51,955 nucleotides of DNA from Chrysophaeum taylorii (lineage: Eukaryota; Sar; Pelagophyceae; Pelagomonadales; Pelagomonadaceae): positions 1 through 51,955 of the forward strand of contig JAQMWT010000068.1 of assembly GCA_029834535.1 (NCBI GenBank), in the 5' to 3' direction. Of the stretch, positions 6,238-51,536 are shown piece after piece (within the stretch, counting starts at the first letter, position 1; each line of letters begins with the position of its first letter). The notes beneath the pieces are model-generated. The model had not been told where the DNA came from. It ran no database searches and saw nothing but the letters and a program-made list of their open reading frames with translations. A program made the position numbers and the translations under genes.

Positions 6238-6766
6238 GTGTTTCTCTCAGAGTCCAATCTCCGCAAACCCTCTGTCATGTTACTTTGTTCTGGTTTGTCA
6301 ACTCCGGCGTTCCGGTCTCAAGCCACTAATGACTTAGGCTTAAATATCAATGTAAAAGTTGTTGTAAGTCTGATGATACGCTTGTTCGTATGTTACGCCA
6401 CCGTTTTCCTACTGTATTATTTTTGAATCTCTCCCCGCCTTTATTAACCACCTTCACCTAATCTCACCAGAGGAAAGGCGCACATTCTATTGTGATATAA
6501 TTGAGATCACTCCTCCCTGCACAAACAGGAATTTACTAAAACAGCATAAGACGGAAGACTTACACAGCCTGCTGGACGACTCTCTTTTCGACAGCATGTT
6601 GTCTGTCATCAAGCTACTCCAGCCCTTGGTACTACTGCTGAGATGACGCCTCCGCATAAATACTGTCATCAAGACCACATCACAGTGGCCAACCTTATCC
6701 ATACTACACTTGATTACTGTGTCGATGTTGTTGATAGGTTCCCGACCTACCTCTGTGGCGGCTACC
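6238..6766 (+). pseudogene. Copia element A C5 methyltransferase, N-terminal half (motifs I-VI)
   Basis: Motif I reads LLCSGLSTPAF (about 6276-6308), close to LLCSGMSTPAF in element B. Motif IV reads ITPPCTNRN (about 6508-6534), keeping the catalytic Pro-Cys. Motif VI reads EMTPPH (about 6647), identical to B, with the catalytic Glu retained. The segment then runs to LCGGY, where the LINE interrupts the Gln codon of motif VIII. Frameshifts lie after motif I (about 6366) and before motif VI (about 6640). The other half resumes at 10258. Confidence 0.75.
6762..6766 (+). repeat. Target-site duplication (left) of the LINE
   Basis: CTACC here and at 10258-10262 flank the LINE. Removing one copy rejoins the copia frame as Gly-Tyr-Gln, matching element B around motif VIII, which supports the boundaries. 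Confidence 0.7.
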
Positions 6767-9700
6767 TAACTTAAACTAACTAACTTCGGACCTCTCCCGG
6801 GCATGGGAGCCAGGCTGGGCCGGTAGTAGCCGGTCCAGGATCACAGAGCAAAAAATCACACAGTTGGGGTAGAAGCTTGGGAAGAAATTGCATGGATGGC
6901 GGACCGCCACTGCGCGCGGTCTTGTGCGAGGTCGTGCCACGAGTTGAAGGGGATGTCGCATTTCCGGAGTGCCTTGGCGAGCGACCTCCCGTACGTCATC
7001 TGCGGAGCCCCCGGTGGGCGCTTGGAGCGGACCCAAGACGAGAGCATCTTGCGAGGGAGTCGGGAGAAGGGCATGCGGGCGACGTGACCGGCCCAGCGGA
7101 GCTGGCGGCGCGTGACGTAGACGTCGATGGACTCGAGGCCGAGGCGCCGCCGCAGGATCTCCGTTGAGATGTGGTGGGACCAGGTGTGTTTCCGGGTCAC
7201 ACGACACATGACGCGGGCGCACTGCGCGTGGAAACACCGCAGCCGGCGGAACAGGACCTCGGTGAGGCACCACGATTCCGCACCGTGAAGGAGGATGGCC
7301 AGGACGAGCGAGACATAGACGAGGCGCTTGGCGCGAGCAGAGACGGACTTCGAGGCGAAGATGCAGTCCCGCAAGGCACCGAAGGCCTGAGACGCCTTCT
7401 TGATCCGCGCGTCGACGTCTGAGTCGTCGCGGCAGTCGCGCGAGAGGACCGAGCCGAGGTACTTAAACTGGTCGACGACCGGTATGAAGCGGCCGCGCCC
7501 GAGCTCGATGTCCGAGAGGTTCGTGTCGTCGAACGACTTTGGGTCGCCGTACAGGTGTGCCGGGCGAGCGACGAACAGCATCTCCGTTTTGGACGCCGCT
7601 TTCGTGTGTCGGTTGCCGCAATGCACCTCCATGCCCCAGGCGTCGCAGTGTTCGATGAGGCGCGGTGTCTCGCTGGCGGCGATGTGGCGGTCCCAGAAGA
7701 GAAAGGCAACGTCGTCGGCGTACGCCGATTCATCGAAGGGAAACTCGTCGCCGCGAGCGGACCAACTCCGGTTCGTCATCTGAAAGTCTTTCCGCGTACG
7801 GTAGACACATGGGGTGCGGCCATGGCGTCGTCGAAACGACGTCGTCAGTGCCGCCATGAACAGCACGAACAGGACGGGGCCCAGGACGTCGCCCTGCTTG
7901 ACGCCGATGATCGAGTCAACCGAGGCGACGACACCGCTGACCGAGAAGTGGACCTGGATTCGGTGGAGGCCCTTGATGACTGCGACGAGCTTCGGCGGGA
8001 CGCCGAACTTCAGGAGCACCTCCCAGAGAAGCTCTCGCGGGACGCGGTCGAACGCCTTAACGAAATCGATGAACAGTACCCACGAGTCCTGACCGTGCTC
8101 ACGCCGCTTCTTCAGCGCTAGCTTGAGCGAGAAGGTGGCGTCGGACGTACCGCGCTCGGGTCGAAAGCCACATTGAGACTCGTGATCGAGGGCCTCGCAG
8201 ATGACGTTGAGTCGCGCACGGACGATGTTCGAAACGATCTTCTGCGCGACCTCGAGCATCATGATCCCGCGGTAGTTGCCCGGCAGGGAGAGGTCCCCCT
8301 TCTTGGGGAGAATCCCGAGGAGGCCTACGTCCCACTCGGCCGGCTGGACTTCAGACTCCCAGAACTCGAGGACTACACGCTCCAACAGCGGGAGCGTGCG
8401 AGCGTCGGTGGCGAGCGCCTTCCAGACCTCCGCGCGCAGGCCCGATTCGCCGGGCGCGGTGCAGTTCAGCTGACCAACGGCCCGTTTTATCGCCTCCTGC
8501 GTCGGTGGTTCCCCGAGTTCCGGACGGATCGGCAACTGGTCAACGTCGTTGATCACGGTGGGGTCGTAGCGAGCTTGTCGACTGTAGAGCTGCTTGAAGT
8601 GCGCCTTGAACACGTCGGCGTTCTCCTGTGGCGACGAGCACCTGCTACCGTCGGCCTTCGTCATCTGCACCTGCCTAGCCAATGTGGTCTTCGTGAGACC
8701 GCGTCGGAGCCGTTCGACCGTATTCCAGTATTTCGAAGTGCCGCCGAGCGACTCGCTTCCCGCGTTGAGTCCGGCACACAGACGAGTAATCCATCGCTCT
8801 TTCGCCCGTGCTACGGCCTTCGCGAGCCGCGACTTGATCGCCCGAAGGTCGTCGAGGATCGTGGACGCCGAGCGAAGACGGCGCCGGGCACCGAGCGAGA
8901 GCACAAACGCGTGGAGGGAGTTGCGTCGCTCGATCAGAGGCTGGAGCTCTTCCGCCGCGTCCTCAAACCATCCGGGTCGGAGGCGTCGGGTCTTCGGCAG
9001 TAAGGCGTCAGAGGCCGAGGCCGCCGCCCGCGCAAGGCGGGAGTACGGCGAGGACGGCGAGCCCTGGTCGGCGTCGGCCTGGTCGGCGTCGGGTATCTCG
9101 TCCGTGGCGTCGGTCGGTGCGTCGTCGGTCGCGTTGTCATGTGACCCACGGCCCAAGCCGAAGATGTCGAGCACTTTCGAGCACCACCGGCGCCGGAATC
9201 CGAAGCGCGTGCTTTCTGAGCGCAGGGGAGCGTAGTCAAGGCGCGCCAAAGAGGGCCGTGTGCCAGGAGGCCGTGCGAGGCGGACTTTGACGCGCAGGAT
9301 GCACTTGAGAGCGCGGTGGTCCGAGTCCACGAGGCTGCTGGTCAAACCCACATCAGCGAACCGGTGCACGTCGCGCCGCCGTGAGATCATGTGATCGAGC
9401 TGGTACGTTTTCCAGGAGCGCGGGTGCAGCCACGACGCGTAGGCGCGCTTGCGGAAGAACGTGCCGACCGACGCCAGACGCCGTGTTGCGAGGAACGTGT
9501 GGAGACGGCGGCCAGCGTTGTTGACGTAAGGCGCCCCGTAGGGCCCACAGGGGCCGTCGACGACGTACTTGGAGCGCACGCCGAGAGCCGCGTTCCCGTC
9601 CATCCCCAGGACGAGGATGTCGTCCGGCCGTCGCGCTTGAAGCGCAAGGTCAATGTCGTCGAAGAACGCGTCCCATTTCTCGTCAGGCGCGGTTCCGACT

Positions 9701-10257
9701 GGAGCGTAAGCGCTCATGACAAAGAGGCCGAGGTCTCGATCGTCATCGTCCTGGACATCGAGTCGCAGCGCAATAACTCGCGCAGATGCGCGGATAACGG
9801 TGCTGCCGCTCGCGTGCCACGCCTGTTGCGCCGCAGGGGACAGCACCACGGCCACACCCTGGCTGCCGCGGGAAGACTGCTCGGAGGCTGCCAAACCGGA
9901 ACAAACAGCGACGTAGCCGTGTCGCTCGAGCGACTCGTTGCCGGTGAGCCACGTCTCCTGCAACGTGGCCGCGAAGATGTCCCGCCGCCGTAAAGATGCG
10001 AACAACTCTTCCTTCTTCTCGTCGCGTCGCAGACCGCGAACGTTTTGGTCCACGAATAATCGACCCGTCCGTCGCTTTCTACCCAACCGAGCGAACCCCA
10101 TCCCAGCGCAGACTTTCCGGGTGCTAACCGGCCAGCCCGGGAGGCGAGCAGGCACCGTCTCACTCCGGGACGGCCGGGGCCGCCGCAGGGAGCAAGCGTA
10201 TTAGGCGCCGTCCTCCATCGCAACCATAAGGGTAACGATCGCAAGGGTTAGGGTGAA
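6767..10257 (-). mobile_element. Full-length non-LTR retrotransposon (LINE, RTE-like)
   Basis: The element is about 3.5 kb and much richer in GC than the copia DNA it sits in. It contains one long ORF on the minus strand, short untranslated ends, and a 3' end (low coordinates) of TTAG-type short repeats (AGTTAGTTAGTTTAAGTTA on the minus strand) instead of poly(A). It is bounded by a 5-bp duplication CTACC. Two internally deleted relatives share its ends (18588-18953 and 39869-40048). The intact ORF and clean junctions suggest a fairly recent insertion. Confidence 0.88.
6856..10155 (-). CDS. LINE ORF: apurinic-type endonuclease plus reverse transcriptase
   Basis: This uninterrupted 1099-residue protein would nick the target and reverse transcribe its own RNA at the nick. 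The EEP endonuclease is at residues 34-290: LQETWL (Glu67), MSAYAP, GMDGNAALG (Asp186, Asn188), YQLDH and VDSDH (Asp279-His280). A linker rich in Asp and Ala (about 340-370) follows. RT is at about 605-880: FIDFVKAFDRV (Asp697), GVKQGDVLGP, and the YADD box at 812-815. The C-terminal region contains RRQLRWAGHVARMP, common in RTE-like LINEs. All catalytic residues I can place are present. The Met at 10155 is the first of the frame; no separate ORF1 was seen. Confidence 0.92.
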   Translation of the reverse strand: MPARLPGWPVSTRKVCAGMGFARLGRKRRTGRLFVDQNVRGLRRDEKKEELFASLRRRDIFAATLQETWLTGNESLERHGYVAVCSGLAASEQSSRGSQGVAVVLSPAAQQAWHASGSTVIRASARVIALRLDVQDDDDRDLGLFVMSAYAPVGTAPDEKWDAFFDDIDLALQARRPDDILVLGMDGNAALGVRSKYVVDGPCGPYGAPYVNNAGRRLHTFLATRRLASVGTFFRKRAYASWLHPRSWKTYQLDHMISRRRDVHRFADVGLTSSLVDSDHRALKCILRVKVRLARPPGTRPSLARLDYAPLRSESTRFGFRRRWCSKVLDIFGLGRGSHDNATDDAPTDATDEIPDADQADADQGSPSSPYSRLARAAASASDALLPKTRRLRPGWFEDAAEELQPLIERRNSLHAFVLSLGARRRLRSASTILDDLRAIKSRLAKAVARAKERWITRLCAGLNAGSESLGGTSKYWNTVERLRRGLTKTTLARQVQMTKADGSRCSSPQENADVFKAHFKQLYSRQARYDPTVINDVDQLPIRPELGEPPTQEAIKRAVGQLNCTAPGESGLRAEVWKALATDARTLPLLERVVLEFWESEVQPAEWDVGLLGILPKKGDLSLPGNYRGIMMLEVAQKIVSNIVRARLNVICEALDHESQCGFRPERGTSDATFSLKLALKKRREHGQDSWVLFIDFVKAFDRVPRELLWEVLLKFGVPPKLVAVIKGLHRIQVHFSVSGVVASVDSIIGVKQGDVLGPVLFVLFMAALTTSFRRRHGRTPCVYRTRKDFQMTNRSWSARGDEFPFDESAYADDVAFLFWDRHIAASETPRLIEHCDAWGMEVHCGNRHTKAASKTEMLFVARPAHLYGDPKSFDDTNLSDIELGRGRFIPVVDQFKYLGSVLSRDCRDDSDVDARIKKASQAFGALRDCIFASKSVSARAKRLVYVSLVLAILLHGAESWCLTEVLFRRLRCFHAQCARVMCRVTRKHTWSHHISTEILRRRLGLESIDVYVTRRQLRWAGHVARMPFSRLPRKMLSSWVRSKRPPGAPQMTYGRSLAKALRKCDIPFNSWHDLAQDRAQWRSAIHAISSQASTPTV

Positions 10258-10262
10258 CTACC
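10258..10262 (+). repeat. Target-site duplication (right) of the LINE
   Basis: CTACC, matching 6762-6766. Copia sequence resumes here with the QxR part of methyltransferase motif VIII. Confidence 0.7.
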
Positions 10263-11690
10263 AATCTAGAGAAATATAGATATGCATCGCACGCAGATAT
10301 TCTACTGGACCAATTAACCTATTGTCGTGGCCCATCCTCCATCCACGCCCCTTCCTACAGATCGTGGATGATCTACAAACTATCCCCAAGCGCCTTTGGC
10401 CACCTAACCACGTATCCAAAGACTGGATCCGGTTGTTCCCCGATCCTCCATATGTCCCCGTTCCTAAGACTTTTGCACATTACTCTCGCACAGGTTCTGC
10501 TCAGCTCACAATGGCTGACCTTGAATCCCTCAATATGTTATTGCTTCGCCTTCACTCACAACAGGCTCACGAACAACGTACTCACTCTGTTCAATCCGAG
10601 TGTACTTATCATCAGTTGTGCTTTAAACGCTCCTCTATGGAGCCATTACCCAATGCAACACATCCTATACACGTCAAGGTTTTTACAATCCTCTATAACT
10701 TGTTTGCCAGCTTACATACTAACTCACCCACTCCTGTGTCCTATTACATAACCGTTTTCGAAACTAACCAACCGTCACACAGGTTATTACTTACAACCTC
10801 ATCAACATCACACAACTCCTACTTCTTACCTGGTGGCCACCATTCCGACGGCAACCTCACCATAGAGAACGCCACCAACAACCAAAAGACCCCCATCAAC
10901 GCCTTTGGGAGCACGTATACGTTCACTGCTTCCGACATCCCCCGCGACCGGGACAGGTCCATATATCTGGAGCCGTTTATAGGTTACTTGTGGATAGTCC
11001 AAGCCCTTCCCCAAGTTGGCTCCGCTACCACCTATGGCACCGCCATACAAAACCTCGTGTCCAGATGCGCTCTCATTATGCCTGGCTGCCTTACCTACAA
11101 GGCCACCGACAACTCTTTCGATTACAAGGATTCTCATTTTGCTCTGGAAGATCACCACTTATCTCATAGTCGCTATATATAGTATCTTCCTGGAAGTGAC
11201 CGCAAACTCGGTTATAAAATCCACTCAATGCTTGCTCCATTGCCAACCGTCCGAGGGTATGCCAATATTATTTTACTCGACCCTCGCAACGGGAAATTAC
11301 GCTACCCCACTCGACCGGAGTTGATTCGTGCTAACAACCACACCAAACAACAGGAATCCTTCCTCTTGTCTCTACGCCATGACCTTTGCTGTGATATGCT
11401 CAGCAATGCTCTGCCTGCCGGTACGTACAGCACTGTGTACAAGCACCTTTCGCTCCTCGTTGCCGATATTAAATCCCTTATGTCGAACCCTACCTTTCGA
11501 CATACTGCTGCAGTGACTAAGAAATCCTATGTATCCAGTTTCATGACCATTAATCAAGCTTCCACCACGTGCAGCACAGATACTTTGTCTTTAGCACAAG
11601 CTTTTGTGATGTCTATTTCCAGCAACTGCTTGACCGAAATGTCGTTAAACTACATATCTTCGTCCTACGAAGATACTCTCGTTACTCGTG
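10258..11690 (+). pseudogene. Copia element A C5 methyltransferase, C-terminal half (motif VIII to X)
   Basis: The resumed frame begins QSRE (motif VIII) but meets a TAG within a few codons. Frame 10322-11182 is the long target-recognition-like region, aligned throughout with element B: LLSWP, SRTGS, ESNQPSHRL, INAFG and LEP-(I/V)-(T/G)G-(Y/F)LW. Frame 11228 onward gives motif IX (RPELIRANN) and motif X (SNALPAGTY). Frameshifts lie at about 11190-11225. Similarity to B continues without gaps of note, so the whole long region is a stable part of this transposon family. Confidence 0.75.
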
Positions 11691-12640
11691 ATGATGAGGA
11701 TGCACCTCCAAGTGACCCTGCTGCGCACCAGGATGACGACGCACCGCCTTCCCCTGCCTTAGACACCGAACTCAAGTTCGATGTTCGACGCAAACGGCAT
11801 ATTCCCGCTCATCCAATTCCTCGTAAGTCCCTCGCACACGGATCCACCGAATATCTCAATGCCAAAGAACGTGCCAATCTCCTTCACCGGGTGCATCACT
11901 GCCCCGACAACGTCGCTGCCAAACCCCCCAACGTACTTGCTCGCCCTGGATTCTCTGCTTCTGACATACCATATCGCGACTTATGCACCGACTGCATCGC
12001 ACACAACAAGCGCCACCCGCACAAGCATTTCAATGCGACCAAGCCTTCTTTTGAGCAAACTCACAAAGCCGGCGAAGTCTGGGCGTGCGACGGCGGCTAT
12101 GTGACCATCCCATCCGAATGGGGAGGCTTCACACATATCATCAAGGAACTCATTTTGAAATTTCTCTTGGTGTACTTTACACGCACCACCAACGCCACGG
12201 AGTTCACTCAAGCTCTGGATTTTGTGTATGACTTCTGTCGTACACAACTCAATGTGCACATGCGCACCCTCTACTCCGATGCATTCAAGCCTTACTTTAG
12301 CCAGCACATTACCTCCCCGTGCCGCGTCGATAAGGGCATTCAACTCATTGCCTTCCCGCCGTACATGCACCACTTTAACTTTGAAGTTGAGTCTGCCATC
12401 GGTTTTATCGCCTCCGCCTCCTCAACTCGCCTTCGTTCTCTCCTTAATGCTCACTATCGTGGCGCCAAGATCGTGGAGCCCGCTATCATGTTCCCATGGG
12501 CGGTGATACACACCGTTCAAAGCTATAACCTTCTCCCGAACGCCACGCTCGAGCGCATATTCATCATGCTATTCTGAGTCCGCAACAGCTACTCTACAAC
12601 CAACTCAGCACTCCCCAACGCGATATGCTCAAGATTTTTG
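11691..12640 (+). pseudogene. Copia element A integrase (truncated)
   Basis: The frame ending at 12577 contains the zinc-binding region (HRVHHC, then LCTDCIAHNKRH), the first catalytic Asp in WACDGGYVTI, the second in LYSDAFKPY, and the third acidic residue in HHFNFEVESAIGFI. The triad therefore looks complete in this copy, unlike B where a frameshift precedes the Glu. The core ends with YPWAVIH-like and NLLPNATLERI segments, then a frameshift and the junction with gypsy DNA at about 12640. Integrase would insert the cDNA, but without RT this copy cannot act alone. Confidence 0.8.
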
Positions 12641-37437: not shown

Positions 37438-37756
37438 TGGCGGCACAGAAAAAACTTCCCGACCCCCGGGTGACAAAGGGGGTACTCACCGACTCGTCCG
37501 AGACCTCACTGAACGAGGAAAACACGGACGCGGGGTCGGATAAGCTCGCCACACACCTTGCTCACGCTCACCAAGCCTCTCAACAAGATGGAGAGATGGA
37601 ATATGATAGCAAGGAAACTACAAGAATACAGCAAGAATGCTTCTCACAAAAGAGAGGTATGATGTCACTAAGAAGATCGGGAAAGGTGTCCCGTTGAACG
37701 GGTATCAAGCCTCGAGAGAGGGGGGGGTAAGCCTTAGCGGTCAGGAGTTGCCGCCA
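37438..37756 (-). repeat. gypsy 3' LTR (copy 3), 319 bp
   Basis: Same length and termini as the LTR at 20004-20322 (TGGCGGCA...TGCCGCCA). A weak purine-rich stretch (CAGGGGAG, minus strand, about 37760-37768) precedes it. Confidence 0.88.
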
Positions 37757-37788
37757 CAGGACTCCCCTGGTGAGAACACGAGCTGCCC

Positions 37789-38751
37789 TCAGCGAGCCCG
37801 GCGAGAAGCACGAGCCTTGGCTGAATGACCATCTCGAGAACGAATCTTCTTGTAGGCACGTTCAACGACAGGTTCAGGAACGCGTCCACCACGTAAAGTG
37901 AACTTAGGAATCAACACATCGATCTCATGCGGGGCGAAGTCGGTGACACAAGGAGTGGTACTGTTGTTGACCTTGGTCTTGTCGGTGAAACTGCGACCGT
38001 CCACGTCCTTGTATTCCGGCTTAAGCTTGCGAGTAGAGGGATGTGAAGTAGGCTTGTAATAAGAAACCTTGTCATGGGGACCGAGATCAGCATAGAAATG
38101 CAGAGCGACACGATCATTCACAAAATCATAGGGTTCATAAACTTCAGCGACATAAATCTTCTTTCGCCAATCGGACCGTTTATTATCCGGAATCCGAAAA
38201 ATAACGAACTTACCATGCTTGTAATCATCCCGAAAGGTCTCCTTGGGCTTGGGCACAGCTCGATCGACCACTGGAGAAACCATCACAGGGGTAATCTGAT
38301 TAACATGAACACAACGGCGTTCGGGAGGATAATCAAGAGACTCAATCCTGTAAGTGACCGGGGACAAGCGTTACAAAATAACGAATGGACCGCGCCATTC
38401 CGGTCGAAGCTTGTTCTGAAGAAAAGGGATGTAGAGCAGAACATGTGAACCTTCTTCATACTCCACATCAACATGGTCCGCATTATAGGCGAGACGTTGT
38501 TTACGAAGAGCCTTCTCACGAGCTTCGTTCACCGTAGCGGTATAGAACTTCAGCCTCTCGCGAGTCTCTGCCACAACATCGGAGCGAGTTTTCGGCAGGC
38601 GGCGGACATCAAGATCCATGATCGTGTGATCGGTTGGCAATAAAGGCTGCCGGTTAAGACGAAGCATGAAAGGTGAGATCTGAGTCCCCGGCATAAATTT
38701 GCGATTATAACAGAAAGCAATGTACTCCGCGAACGGCGCATGGCAAGACAA
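37789..38751 (-). pseudogene. gypsy copy 3 integrase C-terminus with an extra C-terminal domain
   Basis: Frame 38751-38371 holds the end of the integrase core (AFCYNRKFMPGTQISPF, LNRQPLLPTD) and a GPF-type module (KLRPEWRGPFVI). One in-frame TAA separates it from 38367-37789, same frame. There about 160 further residues follow, including GKFVIFRIPD and KKIYVAEVYEPYD then VALHFYADLG. That beta-strand-rich pattern looks like a small chromo-, Tudor- or PWWP-like barrel, which in gypsy elements can steer integration to chromatin; this is an inference only. A basic tail ends the protein. Confidence 0.7.
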
Positions 38752-39783
38752 GCCAAAGCATCATCTTGACGAATATTCGGCCAACTGTCGTTGACTAGCT
38801 GATCATTGAGCTGACGCAAGTCAACGGCAGCACGAAAAGCATTCGACGTCCCGGCCTCGGCTCCCTTCTTAGGCAGCATCAGTACAGGAAATCCCCACGG
38901 AGAGTTCGCCGGTCGGATGACTCCATCGCGACACCACTCAGTGATCTGCTTTCTGAGACACTCGAGCTTTGCTGGCGTCAACCTATAAGGCGTCATCTTG
39001 ATCGGTCGTGGGTTTGCGTCTTTAAAGCGTAAAGAAACCGGTGGCGAGTCCACGGGTCTCATAATCGGATCAAAGAAGGCCCACGCGTATTGCACGCAAT
39101 GGCTCAACATCATCTTCGCATCATCATCCAGATGCGGGTTGTCGGGAATTCCTAGATCTCGAACAACCTTCTCAACTTCTTCCTTCGTCGGAATTGCGAC
39201 TTTCATCGCATCGTTTTCCTTTACGTGCTCGGGAATCTGCGGTAACGGTACACCGTCCGCATCGCGCGGTGCATCCTTCCATGGCACATCCAACTTTTCT
39301 TCGTATTTGAACCTCACCTCGGGGTGGTTCTTATTGATCTTTTCACCTTTGACGCGCACATTCGGCTCGCTCCTTACTTTCGGCTCCTGTTCAGGTTCAG
39401 GATCCGGCGGAACGTCCACTTTTGATTGTCGGGGGGTGGCAGCAGAAAAAACATGAGCCGTCCCCGGCGCATCAGTTCGAAGCGGAAGCATAGGACCTTC
39501 TGGTGATCGTCGTTTCTCGTCCATCAAATCGGACATTCCCATCAACTTCTCCTCCATCGGCGCCGCTGTGGTCTGCTCTGCTGCAACCAAAACTGTATCG
39601 GCTAAAGTGGTCTGCTCTGCTGCGACCAAAACTATATCGGCTAAAACATCGGCTAAAACGGCTAAAACGGTCTCGGGGGGGGGCGTAGGAAAAGAAGACG
39701 TCGTCCTAGACGTCAACTCAAATGGTCTAACGTCATCATCGTAAACTGCCCTGCAAGACATGCACATTGACGAATGGGGGGAC
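38736..39783 (-). pseudogene. gypsy copy 3 linker and RT N-terminal part
   Basis: The 39785-38550 frame starts in the acidic linker (MSPHSSMCMSCRAV), runs through the VLAD-type repeat, then jumps directly to the segment before the RT (PMLPLRTDAPGTAHVF) and on to PYRLTPAKLECLRKQITEWC and NDQLVNDSWPNIRQDD. After about 38736 the RT sequence stops and unrelated frame follows. Protease and methyltransferase are missing. The RT part kept here is well preserved, without frameshifts. Confidence 0.82.
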
Positions 39784-40296
39784 ATGCCTGTGTCGTGTAG
39801 ACGCGGCAGTGGCTATGTGACCAACAGCGGCTTCTACTTCATGATTAAAGACATGTAAGTAAGGGGGGAACTAACTAACTAAACTAACTTCAGACCTCTC
39901 CCGAGCATGGGAGCCAGGCCGGACCGACAGGTGCCAGTCCGGAATCACGGGCCTGTAGACGAGGAGCGCCGAAAGGTCGGTCGGCGGAGAGTGACCATCA
40001 AGCTTGTCGCCATGCGACGAGGAGACCGCGATGTGACTGACAACCAACGGGGACGCGGACATGTTAATACCATGTTCCACACGAAAGGGGGTTGTAACAT
40101 GCTGAGATAAATAGGGTTTGACGGAATCTCGATAGATTTGTTTGAGTTGTACATGAACATAAGTAGAGCAAAAATTGCGGACAAACTCAAGGGCTTTACA
40201 AAATTCGCTGGAGTTAGTGCTACGACAAAAGTACACTAACTGAAATTTAGAAATGTGACACTTGAAAACAATGATATGTCGAAAGGATCCCCATTC
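39784..40296 (-). pseudogene. Copia element C integrase fragment
   Basis: Reverse complement similarity to 46104-46440 of element B: YFCRSTNSSEFCKALEFVRN, then QIYRDSVKPYLSQHV. It lies on the minus strand and is split by a LINE-derived insertion at 39869-40048. Together with 36621-37437 it forms the remains of a minus-strand copia element now separated by gypsy copy 3. Confidence 0.85.
39869..40048 (-). mobile_element. LINE-derived 3'-end insertion (about 180 bp)
   Basis: Nearly the same sequence as the 3' half of the element at 18588-18953, with an ACTAACTAACTAAACTAAC end on the plus strand. The copia integrase sequence resumes cleanly on both sides, with GGGGA repeated at each edge (39864-39869 and 40049-40053), a likely short target duplication. 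It is 5' truncated. Confidence 0.78.
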
Positions 40297-40694
40297 TCCA
40301 GAGAGCTACACTATTATGTGTGCGACACTGGAACATTTCACACCCATCTCTACACGAGGGTTTTCTCTCCGTAATACGGCTTTCCCTCTCTCCTTCCTTC
40401 CTTACCCCTTCCGCCCTTTTATCTCAGATTATGAAGAACCCAGTCTGAAGCTCTTTTCCAACATGGAGTAGGCCTCCAGGTGCGTACCGTCAGGTACGGG
40501 GCTTTCTGTTTAATTAACAGAGGCTTCGTTCCTCGTTGTCAGTGTAAACGCTTCTATGGGATCTAATGTCCTTGAGGAGTTAGGGCTTAAATCCCTACCT
40601 TGTGTAGTAGCATGTGACAAGCGGAATGGTCTGTACACGCCTAAGACTGCACGCAGTCTCTACCATGTACCCGGAGAGGGTCGAATCTCTCCAG
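40297..40694 (+). repeat. 5' LTR of copia element B (about 398 bp)
   Basis: Begins TCCAGAGAGCTACAC directly after the element C integrase fragment and ends at AATCTCTCCAG, where similarity with the LTR at 36621-37042 stops. Shared blocks occur at 51072-51536. The ends are not of the common TG...CA type, so the exact borders are uncertain by a few bases. Confidence 0.8.
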
Positions 40695-40707: not shown

Positions 40708-41176
40708 ATGCGTAGGGTGTCAGCCCAACTGTGTTGTACGTCTAAATCGAATGATCAATTTACGCCTGATCACGAGTACAATACGACAATGTGTTCGGCG
40801 TTGGTCTACTGTACATATTTGTTGTGTGACGGTATGTGCCCACCAGTTAATTTGGTTTGTGACCGAGTTGGGTCGGTCACTGGTCACATGCACTCGCATA
40901 ACGAATAAAATTAAAATTTTTCCTATACAAACCGCGGAAACTTGTACGGGTTTTTCCTTCCATTCCCCAACAAAAGACTGACTGCTCGAGAACTAGTCCA
41001 TTCTTCAGTCTCAAGTCACCCTGTTTTAAATCGCATGTTTATTTGTTTGGTCTTGTCAATAAGCCCACGTTTAAAATAGCGTACTGTACATAGAACCCGC
41101 ACTTGAGAAACCTCTCATTCTTATGTGTTGAATATGTCTATCAATCCTATAACCTATCTCTTAATAGGTCACAATC
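40708..41176 (+). other. Untranslated leader of element B
   Basis: About 470 bases between primer site and Gag start, AT-rich, with no supported gene. Confidence 0.55.
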
Positions 41177-42945
41177 ATGTCAAAACAAAAACCAATATCC
41201 ACCACGGATATCTACAAACAAGAACAAATCCTCGTTGATAAGATTAACGCAGGATTGCGTTTCCAAGATAACTCAACCAAGGTGAGCTTGCAAATTGAGG
41301 TGCTTCGCAGGCATATGACAAGTCCATATGTGGACGCGTTATTCTGCTTGGATTCGTATGAAGCTCACACCCGGAATGCTCCGGAATATAATCAACTTCT
41401 TGAACAAGAAGTTGATATTATCTTCGCTCGATGGAAAGCTGAACAAGATAACGATTTAAACTTACCTGATGAAGATGCCCTGCCCGAACATTTAAAGACT
41501 TGGCACGTCAACTCTTCCCATCAACTAACAGTTGATGTCCGTAATAATCTTGAACGACTTTACTACCAAGAGTCGTATAATCTTGTTCGTCCTGAATTAG
41601 ATAAGGATGTCAAACGTGTCCTCACTTTATTAGATACCCGATTCCCTAAATCAATTGTGTATGATTCATCTTTAACTAACATATCCTTTACAGGTCTCTC
41701 TAATGCCGATTGGATCAAACACTGCGAAACTTATGCTGGTTTCTTGTACACATTCTTTAACTTGGAGTCACAGGAAAGGCCCGCTCTCGCTATGTGGCCT
41801 CAACTAAAGAAAATTTGTGCAATTACTGCACATCCCAATAAATTACGAGCTGTAATGCTTTAGCCTACCATTACTATGAGACAGTGTCTTGTACAGATGT
41901 AACTGAGCTTAAATCTCAGTTTAATCGAATGTCTCTAAATGTTAATTGGTATGCCCATGTATTTGTCGAACAACTCCTTGCCTTTCAATCTCAGGCAAAG
42001 CAATTAAATAATGATGAAGCATCAATCCAATTTAATAACTCCATAATCACTCTTAAAGCTCACGAGGAGATCTACCGTCTATATGCTAATCCCTCGGATC
42101 ACGAGCGCTATTCTCAATCTTTATTGGAATGGTGTAAACTATACGAGACACGCTCTGGTAACAACTCGAGTCACGATCCCGAATTGTTAAAGCTAGTTGA
42201 TCCTAACGACGTTCGTCCACTATTGGAATTCTTGTTAAAGATATACAATGAGACAAAGTTTTCTTCTAACCGACGCTTGGATAAACCCGCTTCCTGGATC
42301 CCTTACATCCCTGGTACTACCGCTACCAAGCCACCTAAGGTATTATTGATGGATACTATTCATCAATCCCACGACTCTCTAAACAACGCTTACTCGTTGT
42401 TAGCCACTGTAGCTGGACAGTCTGGCTTCAACGCTCGTAAGCTTCGTAATGCAAAAGACAAAGCATCGACAATTTCACCCCGTGACACGTCGTACTATCG
42501 TCCACCCTCAAATTATAACGTCAAAGGTACCAGCTTCGATCGTCCTGTCTACTCATCTTCCTCTAACCGTAATGCACGCTCTAATATGTCTCTTATGGAC
42601 CGGGCTACTTATCAAGTTGATCGTCTTCGCCACCTGTTTGGTAAATTACAGGAAGCGAATCCCAACCCTTCCACCGACTCTAAAATGGTACAGGAGGAAA
42701 TGAAAAGCTTATTGAGTACCCTCTGGACAACCGCTTCTCAAGCTTCGACACAGTCCTTAGATCCTGACGAAGCCACCCAAGTTCATCTCTACTTATCTCG
42801 AGTTGATACTATGTCCAATACCATATCGAACCTCTTAGAAGCCGATAAGGAATCTCTTGTTTCAGAAGAAAAGTATCAAACTGAAACATCTGCTCCTGAA
42901 GCGTCCCCAGTGATGCGGAGCAGAGGGGGACTGCTGATACAGAGA
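41177..42945 (+). pseudogene. Copia element B Gag
   Basis: The first frame starts at Met 41177 (MSKQKPISTTDIYKQEQILV) soon after the leader and ends at 41863. A small indel near 41857 moves the protein into frame 41884-43020. Element A continues through the equivalent site (RAIMLIAFSHYE), showing the break is secondary. The protein is largely helical, with NVNWYAHVFVEQLLAF and a Ser/Thr/Pro-rich tail. No CCHC zinc knuckle is present. A second frame change near 42910 leads into the protease frame. Confidence 0.8.
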
Positions 42946-42947
42946 AA

Positions 42948-43733
42948 ATGTTCCACACTTTCCTGTCCATTAAAGATGATGAAATCGATAACATCCCTCA
43001 GCCGCTATTGCAGCACATAAATGCTAAAGCTCAGAATGCTATCGTTCGTCGTCAAGCTCGGGAAACTTCCTCGCACTCTGAGCTCCCCAGTAATTTAACC
43101 AATGAAGATAATGAAGATGGATATGCTGACACATGTGCTTCTCAACATGTAATTAACTTTAAACGTTATGCTGATCCTATCCACATCGTAAAGCTACCCG
43201 AGTCCTTATCACCTGCTATCCAGACTGCTACGGATACGCAGAGAATCACACATGCTATGATTATAAGGACCGTCATTCCCGCTCTCCCAAAGCATCCAAA
43301 TGTGGGATATGTAAAGCTAGACGTTGCGCTTTTTCTACCCAAGCAAAACGACCATAACGATCCCGATCTGCACATCATCAGTATGACTCAATGGGGAGAA
43401 GATAAACTTGGTATACATCTTTATGGAGTTGAATTTAAAGGACAATCATCTATCCAGAGTAAAATTGATGATAATGTCAAGATTACTTTGTTTAGACTCA
43501 GTAACCTGTTGCCAACTCTACCAATTTACTCGCTACAACAAGCAAAAGCGCGTAAAATGGAACTTCGCTCACTACAGTTCAGACTATGTGCTTTTAATGA
43601 ACAACGCGAAATGCTCAAACTATATTCCACCCTCATGGAACGCGTAATTTACGTCCCATGGCTTAAAACCATCCTGGAGTCAATGCATTCGCAGCTGCCT
43701 TACATACGCAAGCATTTCCCACCTCCTGTATGA
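42948..43733 (+). CDS. Copia element B aspartic protease
   Basis: The catalytic triplet is DTC at residues 61-63 (GYADTCASQHVINF, about 43122-43163), followed by AIQTATDTQRITHAMI and HPNVGYVKLDVALF, all matching element A. The usual copia form is DSG, so the Cys in the third place is a trait of this family. The C-terminal part (residues about 150-255) is a linker toward the methyltransferase. The frame ends in TGA at 43731-43733 and resumes without a shift into the next domain. A one-base change (CGA to TGA) or stop readthrough could both explain this. Confidence 0.75.
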   Translation: MFHTFLSIKDDEIDNIPQPLLQHINAKAQNAIVRRQARETSSHSELPSNLTNEDNEDGYADTCASQHVINFKRYADPIHIVKLPESLSPAIQTATDTQRITHAMIIRTVIPALPKHPNVGYVKLDVALFLPKQNDHNDPDLHIISMTQWGEDKLGIHLYGVEFKGQSSIQSKIDDNVKITLFRLSNLLPTLPIYSLQQAKARKMELRSLQFRLCAFNEQREMLKLYSTLMERVIYVPWLKTILESMHSQLPYIRKHFPPPV

Positions 43734-43751
43734 CGCAAGGTTACAACACGT

Positions 43752-46406
43752 TTGCTCCATACAGTAACTTCATCTACTAGCCCACGAATACCTACAGTAA
43801 CTTTACTTTGCTCTGGGATGTCCACTCCTGCATTCTTGGCTTGCGCTTCTAATGACTTGCAAATCAACATCAACGTTAAAGTTCTTGTTGAGAGCGACGA
43901 CAATATCACGCACATGCTACGAAGACGTTTTGGTAATTCCATCGAAGTTTTCCCATCCTTACCTAAGTTTTTGACATATCTCCATCGAGCATCGGACGTT
44001 GAACGTGCACGATATTACACTGACATAGTGGAATTGACATCACCATGCACAAATCGCAACATAATCAATGGGAGATCCATTTCCACCTTCGAGCGCGATA
44101 TGGATGATTCCTTGTTCCCAAGTGCTCTAAGTGTACTTGAGCTTTTAAAGCCGCTTGTTCTCTTCATGGAAATGACTCCACCACACTCCGCATCGTATGA
44201 AGATCATATACGAGTTGCTAATCTCATCTTCTCAACGATGCACTATACGGTGGACATATGTGACCGATTTCCATGCTATCTATGTGGAGATTATCAAGCC
44301 AGAGAAAGATGGATCCTCGTCGCACGCAAATATAACACCGGCCCTCTTGATCTGCTTTCATGGCCTAATAAACGAGTCACTTCCTTTCTGGATATTGCAG
44401 ACCACGCTAATTCCATCAGTCGCAAGTTAATAGTCGACGAACCTTGGACGCAGGTCTTTCCTGACATACCATTCGTGTCCACACCTAAAACCTACAATAT
44501 TTTCAGTCGTACAGGATCCGTGCGCTTAACTGTGACTGAGCTTGAAACCTTAACTATGCTGTTCCTTCGTCTGCACTCTAATAAAACAGTCGAACATCCC
44601 AGTCAAGATGAAATGGAGGGCATTTCTAACTTTCGCCTGGGATTCTTGACTAATTCAAGAAAACCACTTGCTTGCATGAGATCCCCTATTGAACTCAAAG
44701 CTTTTGTGCTCCTCTATAATATTATGGGACGATTATTCCCTAAATCCATCACATTACCTGTGTCCTTTCGTATTACAACTATCGAATCTAACCAACCATC
44801 TCACAGGTTATTCTTAAATAAATCCTCTACTTCATCCATCATTTACATCACTGGTGGAAGACACACAGGCGGAGACATAACAGTTTCTAACTCTTCTTCT
44901 AAATACCAGGCACACATAAATGCTTTTGGCGAAACCTACGCCCTTTTAACACACGATGCCGGAATCGATAAGACTGCTTCTCTCGAACCAGTTACCGGTT
45001 TTCTTTGGCTTTGCCAAGCATACCATCATAATGAAAATCAAGACACACGTCGTCTAGTACAAGCACTGGTTTCATATACTTCTCCTGTATTTCACGATTC
45101 TTTTGTCTTCTACCCTCAGGAAAATCGTCTTGAATTTATCGACAAAATATTTGCTTTAAGTGACATGCATTTGTCCCAAAGCAGATATTTGGGCTTTATA
45201 ACATCAAGCGACAGGAAGATGGGTGCCAAAGTTCACTCTATATATACTCCCACTCCTACCATTCGTGGATTTGCTAATATGCTGGTGTACGATCCACGAC
45301 TCGATCGCATTCGACACTACTCAACTCGCGAATTGGCACGCGCCAATAACTTCACAGCGTACCAAATCAATTTTCTTTTGTCTTTGTCCCCTGACCTATG
45401 CTGTGATATCATCGCAAATGCTATTCCAGCTGGAACATATCATACAATTTATAAACACTTGTGTCAGCTTGTTTACGACTTGCGTACATTAACGCTATCA
45501 CCATCGTTTGACCCTGATCACGCTCCTCTAACCAAAAACTATAGGTCAACCTTCTTCACAAATATATTCCCAACAGATACATCTTCAACATTACACCAGA
45601 GTTCCATTACTATGTTCTACATCTCCAATAAAAAACTCTTATGTTGTGATACTATCACTTCTAACCACGAACTTGCCTCTTTTCATACTGATTCAGTAGC
45701 TCATGCTTTCCTCTCTAACATCCTATCCGCAGATATATCATCTCCTACTAAAGAAAAACAAGTACTCCTTATAACGCCAGGACAGCTCCATGAGAAGCAT
45801 GCGCCCTTCGATAAGAAAGTCCATGCCAGGGGCACCCTTGCATTTCGAGATGCGCAACAACGAGCTACTAACTTTCACAACATTCACCATTCCAGTGATT
45901 CTCAAGCCATAAAAGCTGTTCAGGTTATTGCCAGTCCTGGACACCACCCATCTGACGTACCCTACCGTAAGTTCTGTGTGGATTGTACGATTCATGAAAA
46001 ACGCTTTCCTCATCCACACCACCTTATCAAGCAACCATCATTCGGAAAAATTTTTCAACCTGGTGAAGCTTGGGCATGTGACGGTGGTTACGTCTCTGTG
46101 CTCTCGGAATGGGGATCCTTTCGACATATTATTGTCTTCAAGTGTCTCATTTCTAAATTTCTGTTAGTGTACTTTTGTCGTAGCACTAACTCCAGCGAAT
46201 TTTGTAACGCCCTTGAGTTTGTCCGCAATTTCTGCTCTACTTATGTTCATGTACAACTAAAACAAATCTATTGTGATTCCTTTAAACCCTACTTATCTCA
46301 GCATGTTACAAACCCCTTCCGTGTGGAACATGGTATTAATATGTCCGCGTTCCCCCTTACTTACATGTCTTTAATCATGAAGTCGAAGCCGCTGTTGGTC
46401 ACATAG
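43752..46406 (+). CDS. Copia element B polyprotein segment: C5 methyltransferase plus integrase
   Basis: This 884-codon frame is in phase with the protease frame, so the shown start is probably internal to a polyprotein. Residues 16-575 are the methyltransferase (see domain entry). Residues 700-870 are the integrase: zinc-binding FHNIHH (His709, His712/713) with FCVDC (Cys742, Cys745), and catalytic Asp777 (WACDGGY) and Asp842 (YCDSFKPY). The third acidic residue (NHEVEA, about 46379) lies in another frame because one C is missing from a C run near 46350. Having both domains in one uninterrupted frame shows that the methyltransferase is a transposon component and not a nearby host gene. Confidence 0.88.
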   Translation: MLHTVTSSTSPRIPTVTLLCSGMSTPAFLACASNDLQININVKVLVESDDNITHMLRRRFGNSIEVFPSLPKFLTYLHRASDVERARYYTDIVELTSPCTNRNIINGRSISTFERDMDDSLFPSALSVLELLKPLVLFMEMTPPHSASYEDHIRVANLIFSTMHYTVDICDRFPCYLCGDYQARERWILVARKYNTGPLDLLSWPNKRVTSFLDIADHANSISRKLIVDEPWTQVFPDIPFVSTPKTYNIFSRTGSVRLTVTELETLTMLFLRLHSNKTVEHPSQDEMEGISNFRLGFLTNSRKPLACMRSPIELKAFVLLYNIMGRLFPKSITLPVSFRITTIESNQPSHRLFLNKSSTSSIIYITGGRHTGGDITVSNSSSKYQAHINAFGETYALLTHDAGIDKTASLEPVTGFLWLCQAYHHNENQDTRRLVQALVSYTSPVFHDSFVFYPQENRLEFIDKIFALSDMHLSQSRYLGFITSSDRKMGAKVHSIYTPTPTIRGFANMLVYDPRLDRIRHYSTRELARANNFTAYQINFLLSLSPDLCCDIIANAIPAGTYHTIYKHLCQLVYDLRTLTLSPSFDPDHAPLTKNYRSTFFTNIFPTDTSSTLHQSSITMFYISNKKLLCCDTITSNHELASFHTDSVAHAFLSNILSADISSPTKEKQVLLITPGQLHEKHAPFDKKVHARGTLAFRDAQQRATNFHNIHHSSDSQAIKAVQVIASPGHHPSDVPYRKFCVDCTIHEKRFPHPHHLIKQPSFGKIFQPGEAWACDGGYVSVLSEWGSFRHIIVFKCLISKFLLVYFCRSTNSSEFCNALEFVRNFCSTYVHVQLKQIYCDSFKPYLSQHVTNPFRVEHGINMSAFPLTYMSLIMKSKPLLVT
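43797..45470 (+). other. Domain: C5-cytosine DNA methyltransferase inside copia pol
   Basis: All main motifs occur in family order. Motif I is LLCSGMSTPAF (residues 18-28 of the frame). Motif IV is SPCTNRN with catalytic Cys99 (44046-44048). Motif VI is LFMEMT with Glu140. Motif VIII is QARER (182-186). Motif IX is STRELARANNF (524-534). Motif X is IIANAIPAGTY (553-563). Spacing from I to VIII agrees with bacterial enzymes such as M.HhaI, whereas the VIII-IX interval is about 340 residues, so the target-recognition region is long. Motif I lacks the usual Gly-Gly and motif VI has EMT in place of ENV, both shared with element A. The expected product is 5-methylcytosine; specificity cannot be read from sequence. 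Confidence 0.85.
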
Positions 46407-46860
46407 CCACTGCCGCGTCTACACGACTCAGGCATATGCTTAATGTATCCTATAAAGGTCACCCCCTAACAGATCCGGCACCACACTACCCGTGGGCTGT
46501 TATACATGCTATCCAATCATATAATCTCCTCCCTAACGTTTCCCTCGAACGTATTTATAATAAAGTCCTAAGCCCCCAACAAGTTTTGTTAGACCAATGT
46601 AATGTTCCCCAACAAGACTACCTCAAACCTTTTGGTTCTGTTTGTTATTTGCATTTGGAACCTAACGAATTTCATAAATATGAACCCCGATGCCGTCCCT
46701 ACATCTACTTATGCGGTGCTAACGTTATAAACCCTTTAATAACACCCCATGTTAATCATTTAGCCGATGTTGTCCTTAATCCTGAAAACGGTCAAGTCCG
46801 TGTTTCCTCTAAACTGACTTTCCCCATCTTATTTCTAAATCTCCTCCTGATTATGAACAA
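46365..46860 (+). pseudogene. Copia element B integrase C-terminal part
   Basis: After the frameshift the protein goes on with FNHEVEAAVGHI (third catalytic Glu), HYPWAVIHAIQSYNLLPNVS and the copia-typical FGSVCYLHLEPNEFHKYEPR then RPYIYLCGAN. A second frame change near 46850-46940 leads to the linker before RT. Confidence 0.82.
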
Positions 46861-46941
46861 CATCCACCTCCCGCACCTTCACCCGACATTCCCTTCTCTG
46901 TTCACAGCACCCCCAATGATGCGGCGCAGAGGGGGAATGCT

Positions 46942-48200
46942 ATGCCTACCGACACTGACCATGAGAGGGGGACTCCTTCTTCTCATCTCCATGCTCCCTC
47001 TCCCGCTCCCGCATTAGCTCCAGCTGCTCCTGCACCCGCTACTTCCGCCACCACACCTACATCTGAAGTGTCTCCCGACACTCTGCCACTTTTACCATCT
47101 TATCGGTCTCTCTATTCCCAGGATGTCCTCTGTCTCACCCGTGGTCCTCATCACCCTCAGCCTCGTCGCAAAACCAATCTCAAGGATGTTCTTACTCGTA
47201 TTGCTTCGCCTACTGTTGCCGCTTATAAACAAGCCGGTGGTACGCTTGCCGACTTCAAGTATGACCTCTCCAAGCAGTACATAACATTCTGCGACCCCAC
47301 CCTCCACTCCCTTCATCTCGCTCATGGCATCCACTGGACGGCTATACCTCCAGAGGGGGAATTTACACCATCCCTTCATCACCATGTGCACCAAGCGATT
47401 TCACAGTCCTCTTCAGCTATGTGTCATAGGAGCCATAGCCACCCATCGCCTGATGCTCCACATGTCCACTTCTACGACGAAGTCAACCTTGCCGACTTTC
47501 ACCTTCCTCGAGCTCTCGTGCATTTAATTTCTGAACATGCTCACGCCTTTCAAGTTCCTCCCGCTCAATATGCTTATGCTTTGTTCACGCCCCACTCCAT
47601 TTTGGATCATAATGACGCTTCTTATGGTGCTTCCGAGCTTCATCTCTCCGCCATCGACGACTATATCACCGTGCAATCGCATTACATTGAAGCCCACCTT
47701 GGTGATGCTCCTCTACTAGTCGTTCAACTCATCGAAGATCCCGATCACGCTCATCTGCCAGATAATGTCGCTTCTTACGCAACTACTCATCTGACGACGA
47801 CTCAGGACCCCAGCACTGTTGGTTCGGACGAATACAGGATTCAAGCCAAAGATATCAAAATTGATGAATATGAGCTGAACTGCCTCAAAGGTCTATCAGA
47901 CGCTGATCGCAAAGGTTATGTTGCTGCCATCTCCAAAGACATTCTTGACATTGTTAAGTTTGGCTGCTTTAAACTAGCGCTGCCAATGGTCAACTCAAAG
48001 CCTATGGACACCCGCCTCGTCCTACGTATAAAAACCAACGCTGCTGGTCAGTACATTAAACATAAAGCACGCCTGGTCCTACGAGGATTCTTAGCCTCTC
48101 TGGGCACCGATTTCTTCAACACATTCAGCCCTATGGCACAGCTTACTGGCATCCGTTGTGTTCTGGCGCTAGCAGCTCATCTGTACTTCCCGTCTATCAT
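46942..48200 (+). pseudogene. Copia element B linker and RT N-terminal part
   Basis: The 46942-48267 frame begins with a Pro/Ala/Thr-rich linker (PAPALAPAAPAPATSATTPT) and a roughly 250-residue spacer. It then reaches the RT start (KDILDIVKFGCFKLALPMVN, KARLVLRGFLASLGTDFFNT, FSPMAQLTGIR). A one-base shift near 48180-48190 moves the RT into the next frame, so the tail after about 48200 is out-of-frame reading. Confidence 0.82.
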
Positions 48201-49604
48201 GTCGACGTCCCTAACGCTTTTTTTCAAGCTCCCATCGATTCTCATGTCTACGTTAAACCGCCACTAGGCATTTACCTTCTCGATCCCGAAGATACTAAAT
48301 ACCAAGGCCGCCGTCTCCCAAAGCAACTTAAATCTCTCTATGGATTGCGTCAGAGCCCTGCCCTTTGGAATCAAACCACAAACAGCTTCTTTGATTCATT
48401 AGGTTACACACGATTTCGAACAGACACATGCATTTACACTAAAGTCCAAGCTGACGTTACATTTATAATTTGCAAGCTCTCAGTAGACGACGTCGTCATT
48501 ACTTGTACTTCGGAAACTCTACGTCGTGAGTTCCAACAAGCCCTGAAAAAGGAATACTCAGTCGACACCTTCGAGGAAGTCCATACTCTCCTAGGCATGC
48601 GCATAACGCGTACAACAGATGGCTCTATATCACTGGATTGTCAGGCTAAACTTGACGCATTGTTCGAAGAGTACCCCATTTTAATGCAATTACGTCCCAC
48701 TTCTACACCAATGTCACCATCAACCACATATAAAACTGGAGAGCCATCTTCTGATATGGACAAGTTCATCCTTCATACCTGCTCTACGCTACTCGGCAAG
48801 CTCACGTTTGTTCAATTGGCCTGTCGCCCTGATTTATCCCAAAGCCTTAGTCGTTGCTCTCGAGGAATGCATAATCCAGCATTTCTGCATGTTCAAGTAC
48901 TAACAGGAACGCTCCGCTACTTGCGTAAGCCCGAAAATCGTAATCTTCGCCTCTGGTACTACTCTGGTTCTTCCGCTCTAATGGACCATCTTCGACTTCT
49001 TATCGGTAATCGTACTGACATGGCCACCATGTTGGACTACACTAAAGAACAAGTTAATTCAGGTAATTTTGATCCACTGGTCGCATTCGTTGATGCCGAT
49101 AATGCACCTTCTTATGAACAAGACCGCAAATCTACAACAGGCTACGCCATATTTTTGTGTGGTTCTCTCATCACTTGGAAGTCTAAGCTACAGCCTATAA
49201 CAGCTACTTCTGCGCATGAGAGTGAACTTATCGCCCTCAATATGTGTGCCGATGATGTGATTTGGTTCCGCAAATTGCAAACGGAAATGGCCTTCGTTAT
49301 ATACCCACCCTTCTATCTTCGCCAACCTTCAGGGAAAGATTTGCTACTAGATTATGATGCTCAAGACAATCCCCTCCCATCGGACATGTCGTTCATACGT
49401 AACAGCCCCATACTTGGAGATTCGGCCTCTGCTATTCGTCTATCAAATAACCCCGACAGCGCGACTAAGGCTAAAGCTATCAGCACACGCTGGTTCCGTA
49501 TACGCGACTACGTACAGTTAAAACGAATCCGCCTACATCCTGTTTCCGGTACCCATAATATCGACAGATGGATTACCAAACCTTTGGAGCTCCACGTTCG
49601 CTGA
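48156..49604 (+). CDS. Copia element B reverse transcriptase and RNase H
   Basis: RT: YHVDVPNAFFQAPI (Asp17), LKSLYGLRQSPALWN and the catalytic SVDD (Asp111, Asp112; copia usually has YVDD). RNase H: VDADNAPSYEQDRKSTTGYA (Asp313), SAHESE (Glu357) and GDSASAI (Asp422), then RWFRIRDYV and VSGTHNIDRWITKPL, ending in a normal stop at 49604. All catalytic residues are present. A roughly 40-residue insert (about 268-305) lies between RT connection and RNase H. The first codons belong to the other frame; the true entry is near 48185. Confidence 0.9.
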   Translation: MCSGASSSSVLPVYHVDVPNAFFQAPIDSHVYVKPPLGIYLLDPEDTKYQGRRLPKQLKSLYGLRQSPALWNQTTNSFFDSLGYTRFRTDTCIYTKVQADVTFIICKLSVDDVVITCTSETLRREFQQALKKEYSVDTFEEVHTLLGMRITRTTDGSISLDCQAKLDALFEEYPILMQLRPTSTPMSPSTTYKTGEPSSDMDKFILHTCSTLLGKLTFVQLACRPDLSQSLSRCSRGMHNPAFLHVQVLTGTLRYLRKPENRNLRLWYYSGSSALMDHLRLLIGNRTDMATMLDYTKEQVNSGNFDPLVAFVDADNAPSYEQDRKSTTGYAIFLCGSLITWKSKLQPITATSAHESELIALNMCADDVIWFRKLQTEMAFVIYPPFYLRQPSGKDLLLDYDAQDNPLPSDMSFIRNSPILGDSASAIRLSNNPDSATKAKAISTRWFRIRDYVQLKRIRLHPVSGTHNIDRWITKPLELHVR

Positions 49605-51071: not shown

Positions 51072-51536
51072 CCAGAGAGCTACACTATATGGTTTCGTAC
51101 GCACTGGACATTTCTCAAGACTCTTTCTATTTTTTTTTTCTGTGGGGCAATTTGTTACTCTGGTAAACACTAAAAGAGGGTTTTGTTTTTTTATTTTTCT
51201 CTCCGTAATAGGTTTCCTCCTTTTCTTTCTTTTTCCTTACCCTTCCGCCACTTTATATCTGATCCGCGACTCATAAGAACCCAGTCTGAAGCTCTTTTCC
51301 AACATGGAGTAGGCCGCAGGTGCGTACCGTCAGGTGCGGGGTGTCTGTTTAATTAACAGAGGCTTCTTTTTCGTTCCTCGTTGTCAGTGTAAACGCTTCT
51401 ATGGACCTAATATCCTTCAGGAGTTAGGGCCTAAATCCCTGCCTTGTGTAGTAGCATGTGACAAGCGGAATGGTCTGTACACGCCTAAGACTGCACGCAG
51501 CCTCTACCATGTACTCGGAGGGGGTCAAATCTCTCA
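51072..51536 (+). repeat. 3' LTR of copia element B (or 5' LTR of the next element)
   Basis: Starts CCAGAGAGCTACAC and carries the same blocks as 40297-40694 (CTCTTTTCCAACATGGAGTA, GGTGCGTACCGTCAGGT, GTGTAGTAGCATGTGACAA). It is about 65 bp longer owing to T-rich expansions near 51130-51240. Directly after it comes copia coding sequence in the same orientation, so it may be shared with, or belong to, element D. Confidence 0.8.

Follow-up and report, generated by a model that had tools for sequence, protein, structure and literature searches.

In the pelagophyte Chrysophaeum taylorii, a long terminal repeat (LTR) retrotransposon on contig JAQMWT010000068.1 has a C5-cytosine DNA methyltransferase (DNMT) built into a Pol polyprotein of the Ty1/copia type. 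We analyzed the whole contig (C68; 51,955 bases, hereafter the window), which belongs to an assembly of 70.8 Mb in 697 contigs. The element has the Ty1/copia order plus an insert, namely, protease-DNMT-integrase-reverse transcriptase (RT), and shows the traits of that group: integrase ahead of RT in Pol, an RVT_2-type RT, and flanking LTRs. As the original prediction from the bare sequence had it, a single frame leads from DNMT motif I into the integrase zinc finger and the first two catalytic Asp residues, remaining open for 890 codons (Table 1). Host defense against retrotransposons classically relies on methylation. A DNMT carried through the split of two families, selected like the integrase and probably dosed as part of Pol, makes the role of such enzymes testable.

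The domain is almost certainly a C5-cytosine methyltransferase. Motifs I, IV (Pro-Cys), VI (Glu), VIII (Arg), IX, and X are all present in order, and a 22-row alignment, which spans several families and includes two clear DNMTs, has invariant Gly (motif I), Asp, Cys (IV), Pro, Glu (VI), and Arg (VIII). In the profile search, phrog_116 was the sole family listed; it matches the window copy (E 9.5e-4) and 11 of 13 members of its family, which we call family A. The fold predicted for the motif I-VIII slice, from a model built on an alignment containing the two clear DNMTs, is of the Rossmann type, S-adenosylmethionine (SAM) dependent, with C5-methyltransferase topology. DNMT1, ZMET2, and M.HhaI share this predicted fold and the motif order, albeit with 11 to 20% identity over the aligned part and in contrast to a very long segment between motifs VIII and IX in the element. 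Many rows of the fold comparison are tied, so that the DNMT clade is undecidable from them. A family missing from that comparison is not thereby excluded.

Several results weigh against this picture. PF00145, the Pfam profile of C5 methyltransferases, has no match in the window copy, hits 1 of the 13 family A members (E 0.18), and stays below its cut-off for family A and its sister family C, and NCBIfam gives no match; the identification of the window copy therefore rests on phrog_116, the sister families, and the fold. AlphaFold2 gave no confident model for the whole 587-residue region, being confident for motifs I to VIII only, and the unmodeled VIII-IX stretch, at 334 residues, is far larger than the small target recognition domain that had been anticipated along with the Rossmann fold. 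The window copy is also decayed: a frame shift near 46355 leaves the rest of the integrase and the RT in other frames. The expectation of a C5 enzyme within a Copia-type Pol was nevertheless supported by profile, fold, linkage, and selection, whereas the word "complete" holds for the motif set, activity lying outside what motifs show.

The alignment of families A and C finds one transcript relative in MMETSP, and the protein search gave no match for the 890-residue frame or for the high-copy family B (described below). No relatives turned up when viral and prokaryote contigs were scanned with A, B, A+C, P0002, or L009. Searches of PDB sequences with the family A and A+C profiles yielded weak matches with no methyltransferase among them, and the family B profile yielded one methyltransferase match (E 0.25). 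Although their motifs align in register, family B is not matched significantly by the A or A+C profile. When each test was set against 2000 shuffles, the best decoy outscored A on B, B on A, and B on C; the C profile scored just over its best decoy on B, and A+C on B exceeded every decoy (E 0.064).

The DNMT-bearing Copia-type element is not a one-off in this genome. The search for further copies proposed originally found at least 57 matching stretches for family A (51 of 2102 candidates scored, with some copies counted in two or three rows) and at least 133 for family C (131 of 1097 candidates scored), one of the latter within the window. The DNMT-integrase frame is open in several copies. 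Among the best 150 of 1670 candidate RVT_2 places, a family match lies 1.5 to 6.5 kb upstream on the same strand at 16 (family A), 46 (family C), and 61 (either family); the controls for the wrong side or the wrong strand gave 0 and 1. Three of the remaining 89 places were fetched, and all three are family A or C elements, two having DNMT motifs I to VIII in the stretch and the third (L055) only the later part of the region. Genome-wide, PF00145 matches 124 places at E <= 10, none of which is a family A place when the lists are compared by eye.

The DNMT core is under purifying selection, like the integrase and unlike the linker. Among 15 family A copies compared in 105 pairs (those with saturated dS were dropped, and stops occur in some copies), the median ratio of nonsynonymous to synonymous divergence (dN/dS) is 0.077 for motifs I to VIII, 0.086 for the VIII-IX segment, and 0.107 for motifs IX and X, compared with 0.065 for the integrase and 0.203 for the linker. 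Between the window copy and the family C copy L054, identity reaches 58.5% in the DNMT core, 51% in motifs IX and X, 54% in the integrase, and 56 to 62% in the RT. Since the core diverges in step with integrase and RT, the DNMT most likely predates the split of families A and C and has moved with the element since. The VIII-IX segment is only 33 to 37% identical in the same comparison, suggesting that the presumed target region evolves faster than the rest of the DNMT. Taken with the purifying selection, this parallel divergence makes it very likely that the DNMT is an ancestral, selected, and working part of Pol.

A stop codon precedes the DNMT frame. The protease had been predicted to lie upstream in the same phase; its DTCASQH motif is indeed in phase, but a TGA separates it from the DNMT frame. 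TGA followed by C is found at this position in all nine distinct readable family A loci (the window, L002 to L008, and L053; L025 is the L002 locus and was counted once). In family C, 17 of 18 readable loci have TGA at the same place, in the contexts TGA-CTA (14), TGA-CCA (1), TGA-ATA (1), and TGA-ATG (1), while L042 has TTA; L034 and L045 are unreadable there and fall outside the count. Where the protease-like motif was found, it lies in phase with the stop: 606 bases upstream in 4 of 5 family A loci and, mostly at 603 bases, in 11 of 13 family C loci. TGA followed by C, above all TGA-CTA, is a leaky stop context. We therefore regard the conserved UGA as a likely candidate for a programmed readthrough site gating DNMT expression, and the simplest reading is that readthrough would fix how much Pol, headed by the DNMT, is made relative to Gag-protease. 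The host TRRAP/Tra1 frames (2111 and 2121 codons) contain no TGA, which led us to reject a general sense role for this codon. Further programmed stops downstream were rejected as well, the other stops in the copies sitting at scattered places.

The original suggestion that the element could methylate its cDNA or new insertions was probed indirectly: if its methylation of CpG sites were long lasting, its copies should show CpG decay. The observed/expected CpG ratio is 0.90 to 0.98 in family A, 0.82 to 0.87 in family C, and 1.00 to 1.10 in family B, compared with 0.88 in the host TRRAP gene and 1.04 in the window; it rises to 1.32 in a LINE-like (long interspersed nuclear element) open reading frame (ORF) and 1.22 in a Gypsy-like element, both of which are also GC-richer. 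C-T differences at CpG rank just behind those at CpT in families A and B and tie with them in family C. Among eight close copies, segregating C/T synonymous third positions number 29/75 for CpA, 15/37 for CpC, 21/45 for CpG, and 28/63 for CpT. CpG shows no significant excess over the rest in these eight copies (P 0.50) or in all 15 (P 0.52), nor in the smaller G/A sets (P 0.55 and 1.0). With no significant CpG decay, a lasting CpG mark is not shown; the data argue against such a mark, not against a transient one or one in another context, and they may also be compatible with a weak lasting CpG mark or with RNA as the target.

On balance, we favor, with moderate confidence, a model in which an ancestral, selected Pol DNMT is expressed by readthrough and methylates cDNA before integration. 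The Gag-protease frame would end at the conserved UGA, which a minority of ribosomes would read through to make a Gag-protease-DNMT-integrase-RT product. Since the DNMT lies downstream of the stop, it would enter particles at Pol level, alongside RT and integrase. There it would most likely methylate the new double-stranded cDNA; this mark would be short-lived, protecting or disguising the cDNA or tuning its integration, and would not be kept over generations. Packaging, activity, and target are suggested by position and by the precedent of retrotransposon DNMTs that methylate CG de novo, as described in PMC5890265. The element can probably mark its own DNA copy or RNA, and we give cDNA about an even chance of being the main target.

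Alternatively, the domain could act like DNMT2 and methylate RNA, such as the element's genomic RNA or the tRNA primer. We consider this unlikely, as the fold comparison, despite many tied rows, ranks DNA enzymes highest and DNMT2 has a smaller VIII-IX segment than the element. It is improbable that the DNMT instead marks new insertions for host silencing, limiting copy number and damage. Such self-limitation has been proposed for other DNMT retrotransposons (PMC5890265), the genome has further DNMT genes (L009 and L010), and families A and C have lower CpG ratios than the LINE-like ORF and the Gypsy-like element, with higher TpG. However, the CpG differences go with lower GC (mean 0.419 in family A copies versus 0.648 in the LINE-like ORF), host TRRAP is equally low, variability at synonymous CpG sites is not significantly raised, and copy number is high.

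A restriction-like contest, in which host defenses would target foreign cDNA lacking methylation and elements, like phages, would bring a methylase of their own, seems just as doubtful: DNMT domains in at least two unlike retroelement groups of the window (Copia-order and Gypsy-like) and the purifying selection would fit it, but no DNMT shows in the one LINE-like ORF of the window that was scanned. A broader proposal, which we find rather unlikely, is that a DNMT is a general need for retrotransposition in this genome, with unrelated LTR elements each keeping one in Pol, the Copia ones gated by UGA readthrough, and marking particle cDNA to escape host attack on unmethylated DNA. If true, this would be a eukaryotic counterpart of phage anti-restriction methylation.

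The domain might also be a noncatalytic leftover, kept for folding or nucleic acid binding; catalysis is a prediction from sequence, and motifs VI (EM) and IV (TSPC) are unusual. Since catalytic residues should be the first to go in a dead enzyme, their retention in family A (Cys in 15/15, Pro-Cys and QxRxR each in 14/15, and the motif VI Glu in 13/15, the exceptions being one Asp and one stop), together with the invariance noted above, makes this very improbable. Finally, the idea of a spurious motif match within some unrelated insert in Pol, for which the PF00145 miss might speak, is barely credible given phrog_116, the sister families, the transcript relative, and the fold search.

The domain's presence in a Copia-type Pol appears to be a new variation on known cases. 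Dinoflagellates and charophyte algae had been named as precedents; these are real, but PMC5890265 places DNMTs in LINE and DIRS elements of Symbiodinium and in Gypsy elements of Klebsormidium and states that Symbiodinium Copia elements lack one. "LTR Copia and DIRS" are mentioned in excerpts of PMC12344493, citing PMC5890265, which has Gypsy in the parts read. No Copia-borne DNMT element occurs in the portions seen of PMC9998398, and a full-text search of the open-licence literature, with the best matches judged by title and abstract opening, found none described.

Close parallels come from PMC5890265. KnitGypsy-Dnmt3 of Klebsormidium nitens is likewise an LTR element whose Pol polyprotein includes a C5 DNMT under purifying selection, but it has Gypsy rather than Copia order, its DNMT belongs to the Dnmt3 clade, and the parts read mention no readthrough stop. 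SymbioDIRS-Dnmt3 also has a DNMT in the Pol frame with RT, and the SymbioDIRS enzyme is able to methylate CG; it differs as a DIRS element with a tyrosine recombinase and a Dnmt3-clade DNMT. SymbioLINE-Dnmt, a high-copy retroelement with a divergent, orphan DNMT, carries it in the upstream ORF of a LINE and is CG depleted, while the present element shows no clear depletion. Ty1/copia retrotransposons share the order protease-integrase-RT, the RVT_2 match, the SH3 integrase domain, and the LTRs, to which the present element adds a DNMT region of about 550 residues between protease and integrase, with the conserved UGA ahead. The conserved in-phase UGA between protease and DNMT is new here. Compared with the LINE, DIRS, and Gypsy cases, the element stands out by its high copy number, the open DNMT-integrase frames of several copies, the lack of clear CpG decay, and a probable readthrough switch.

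Table 1. Features of the DNMT-bearing element and of a family C copy in the window
Feature	Position	Strand	Basis or remark
Left LTR	40361..40691	+	Approximate ends; 300/347 identical to 51195-51535, 22 gap columns
Gag region, two overlapping frames (41168-41863 and 41842-43020)	41168..43020	+	Position; no Pfam match of note
Frame with protease-like DTCASQH (43128-43148)	42900..43730	+	Motif reading
TGA then C, conserved in-phase stop between protease and DNMT, candidate programmed readthrough site	43731..43733	+	
890-codon open frame: DNMT domain, linker, N-terminal integrase	43734..46406	+	
C5 methyltransferase motifs I-VIII	43794..44309	+	I TVTLLCSG 43794-43817; II VLVESD 43881-43898; IV ELTSPCTN 44031-44054 (catalytic Cys codon 44046-44048); VI LFMEMTP 44160-44180; VIII QARER 44295-44309
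Long VIII-IX segment, presumed target recognition region	44310..45311	+	Position
Motifs IX and X	45312..45440	+	IX RHYSTREL 45312-45335; X IANAIPAGTY 45411-45440
Integrase HHCC finger and first two catalytic Asp	45870..46283	+	rve E 0.0095, below Pfam cut-off; H-H 45870-45890, C-C 45972-45986, first Asp 46074-46088, second Asp 46269-46283
Integrase C-terminal part (FNHEVE from 46370) and SH3 domain, another frame	46340..47017	+	SH3_retrovirus E 4.6e-6
Linker and N-terminal RT	46813..48267	+	RVT_2 E 2.3e-9
RT (SVDD ~48480) and presumed RNase H	48066..49604	+	RVT_2 E 1e-23; RNase H by position only
Right LTR	51195..51535	+	Approximate ends; pairs with left LTR
Family C copy, DNMT split at motif VIII by LINE-like insert (6247-6765 and 10256-12358)	6247..12358	+	36% and 41% identical to the window element's protein

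The two LTRs of the window copy, of about 340 bases, are 86% identical when aligned with each other. The Pfam scan of the window gave no match for the protease-like frame, whose DTCASQH rests on motif reading. About 175 bases near 43110 are missing from this copy and present in the copy on contig C39. On the minus strand, 36621-40516 holds broken, reversed pieces of family A (LTR-like and integrase) with Gypsy-like pieces between them.

Other DNMT-bearing sequences accompany families A and C. Gypsy-like elements at 236-2641 and 12632-17643, both on the minus strand, have RT/RNase H motifs by reading (RVT_1 E 0.0067) and, between the RT and a protease-like region, a DNMT domain of their own (1331-1792: PF00145 E 7.4e-5, phrog_116 E 2.3e-8). 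Judged by these matches, a second DNMT-bearing superfamily, Gypsy-like, is present in the same window. Family B is a high-copy family with motif IV TLPCQHLS and motif VI VEN; all ten PF00145 places L011 to L020 have these motifs, and in L020 (PF00145 E 2.4e-8) the order protease-DNMT-integrase was read. Two DNMT genes outside families A to C are candidate host or virus-derived enzymes: L009 (contig C634), a stand-alone 360-residue DNMT (genome-wide E 3.8e-17), and L010/L024 (contig C621), a protein in which a DNMT is accompanied by long acidic stretches (PF00145 E 2.1e-17).

The LINE-like ORF inside the family C DNMT lies at 6859-10200 on the minus strand (RVT_1 E 8.9e-25, weak Exo_endo_phos). 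The host TRRAP/Tra1-like gene occupies 21872-34406, also on the minus strand, as two long overlapping frames with Tra1_central (E 5.4e-135), Tra1_ring, FAT, and PI3/PI4 kinase matches. The exact spliced-leader pattern expected of a dinoflagellate or Perkinsus host, a possibility also weighed, occurs nowhere in the assembly. Elsewhere in the assembly, L021 (contig C696) looks mitochondrial, with a bacterial-type small-subunit rRNA, tRNAs, and a permuted mitochondrial 5S rRNA (RF02547, 44.5 bits) of the kind found in brown algae, and L022 has, by reading, a cox1-like frame.
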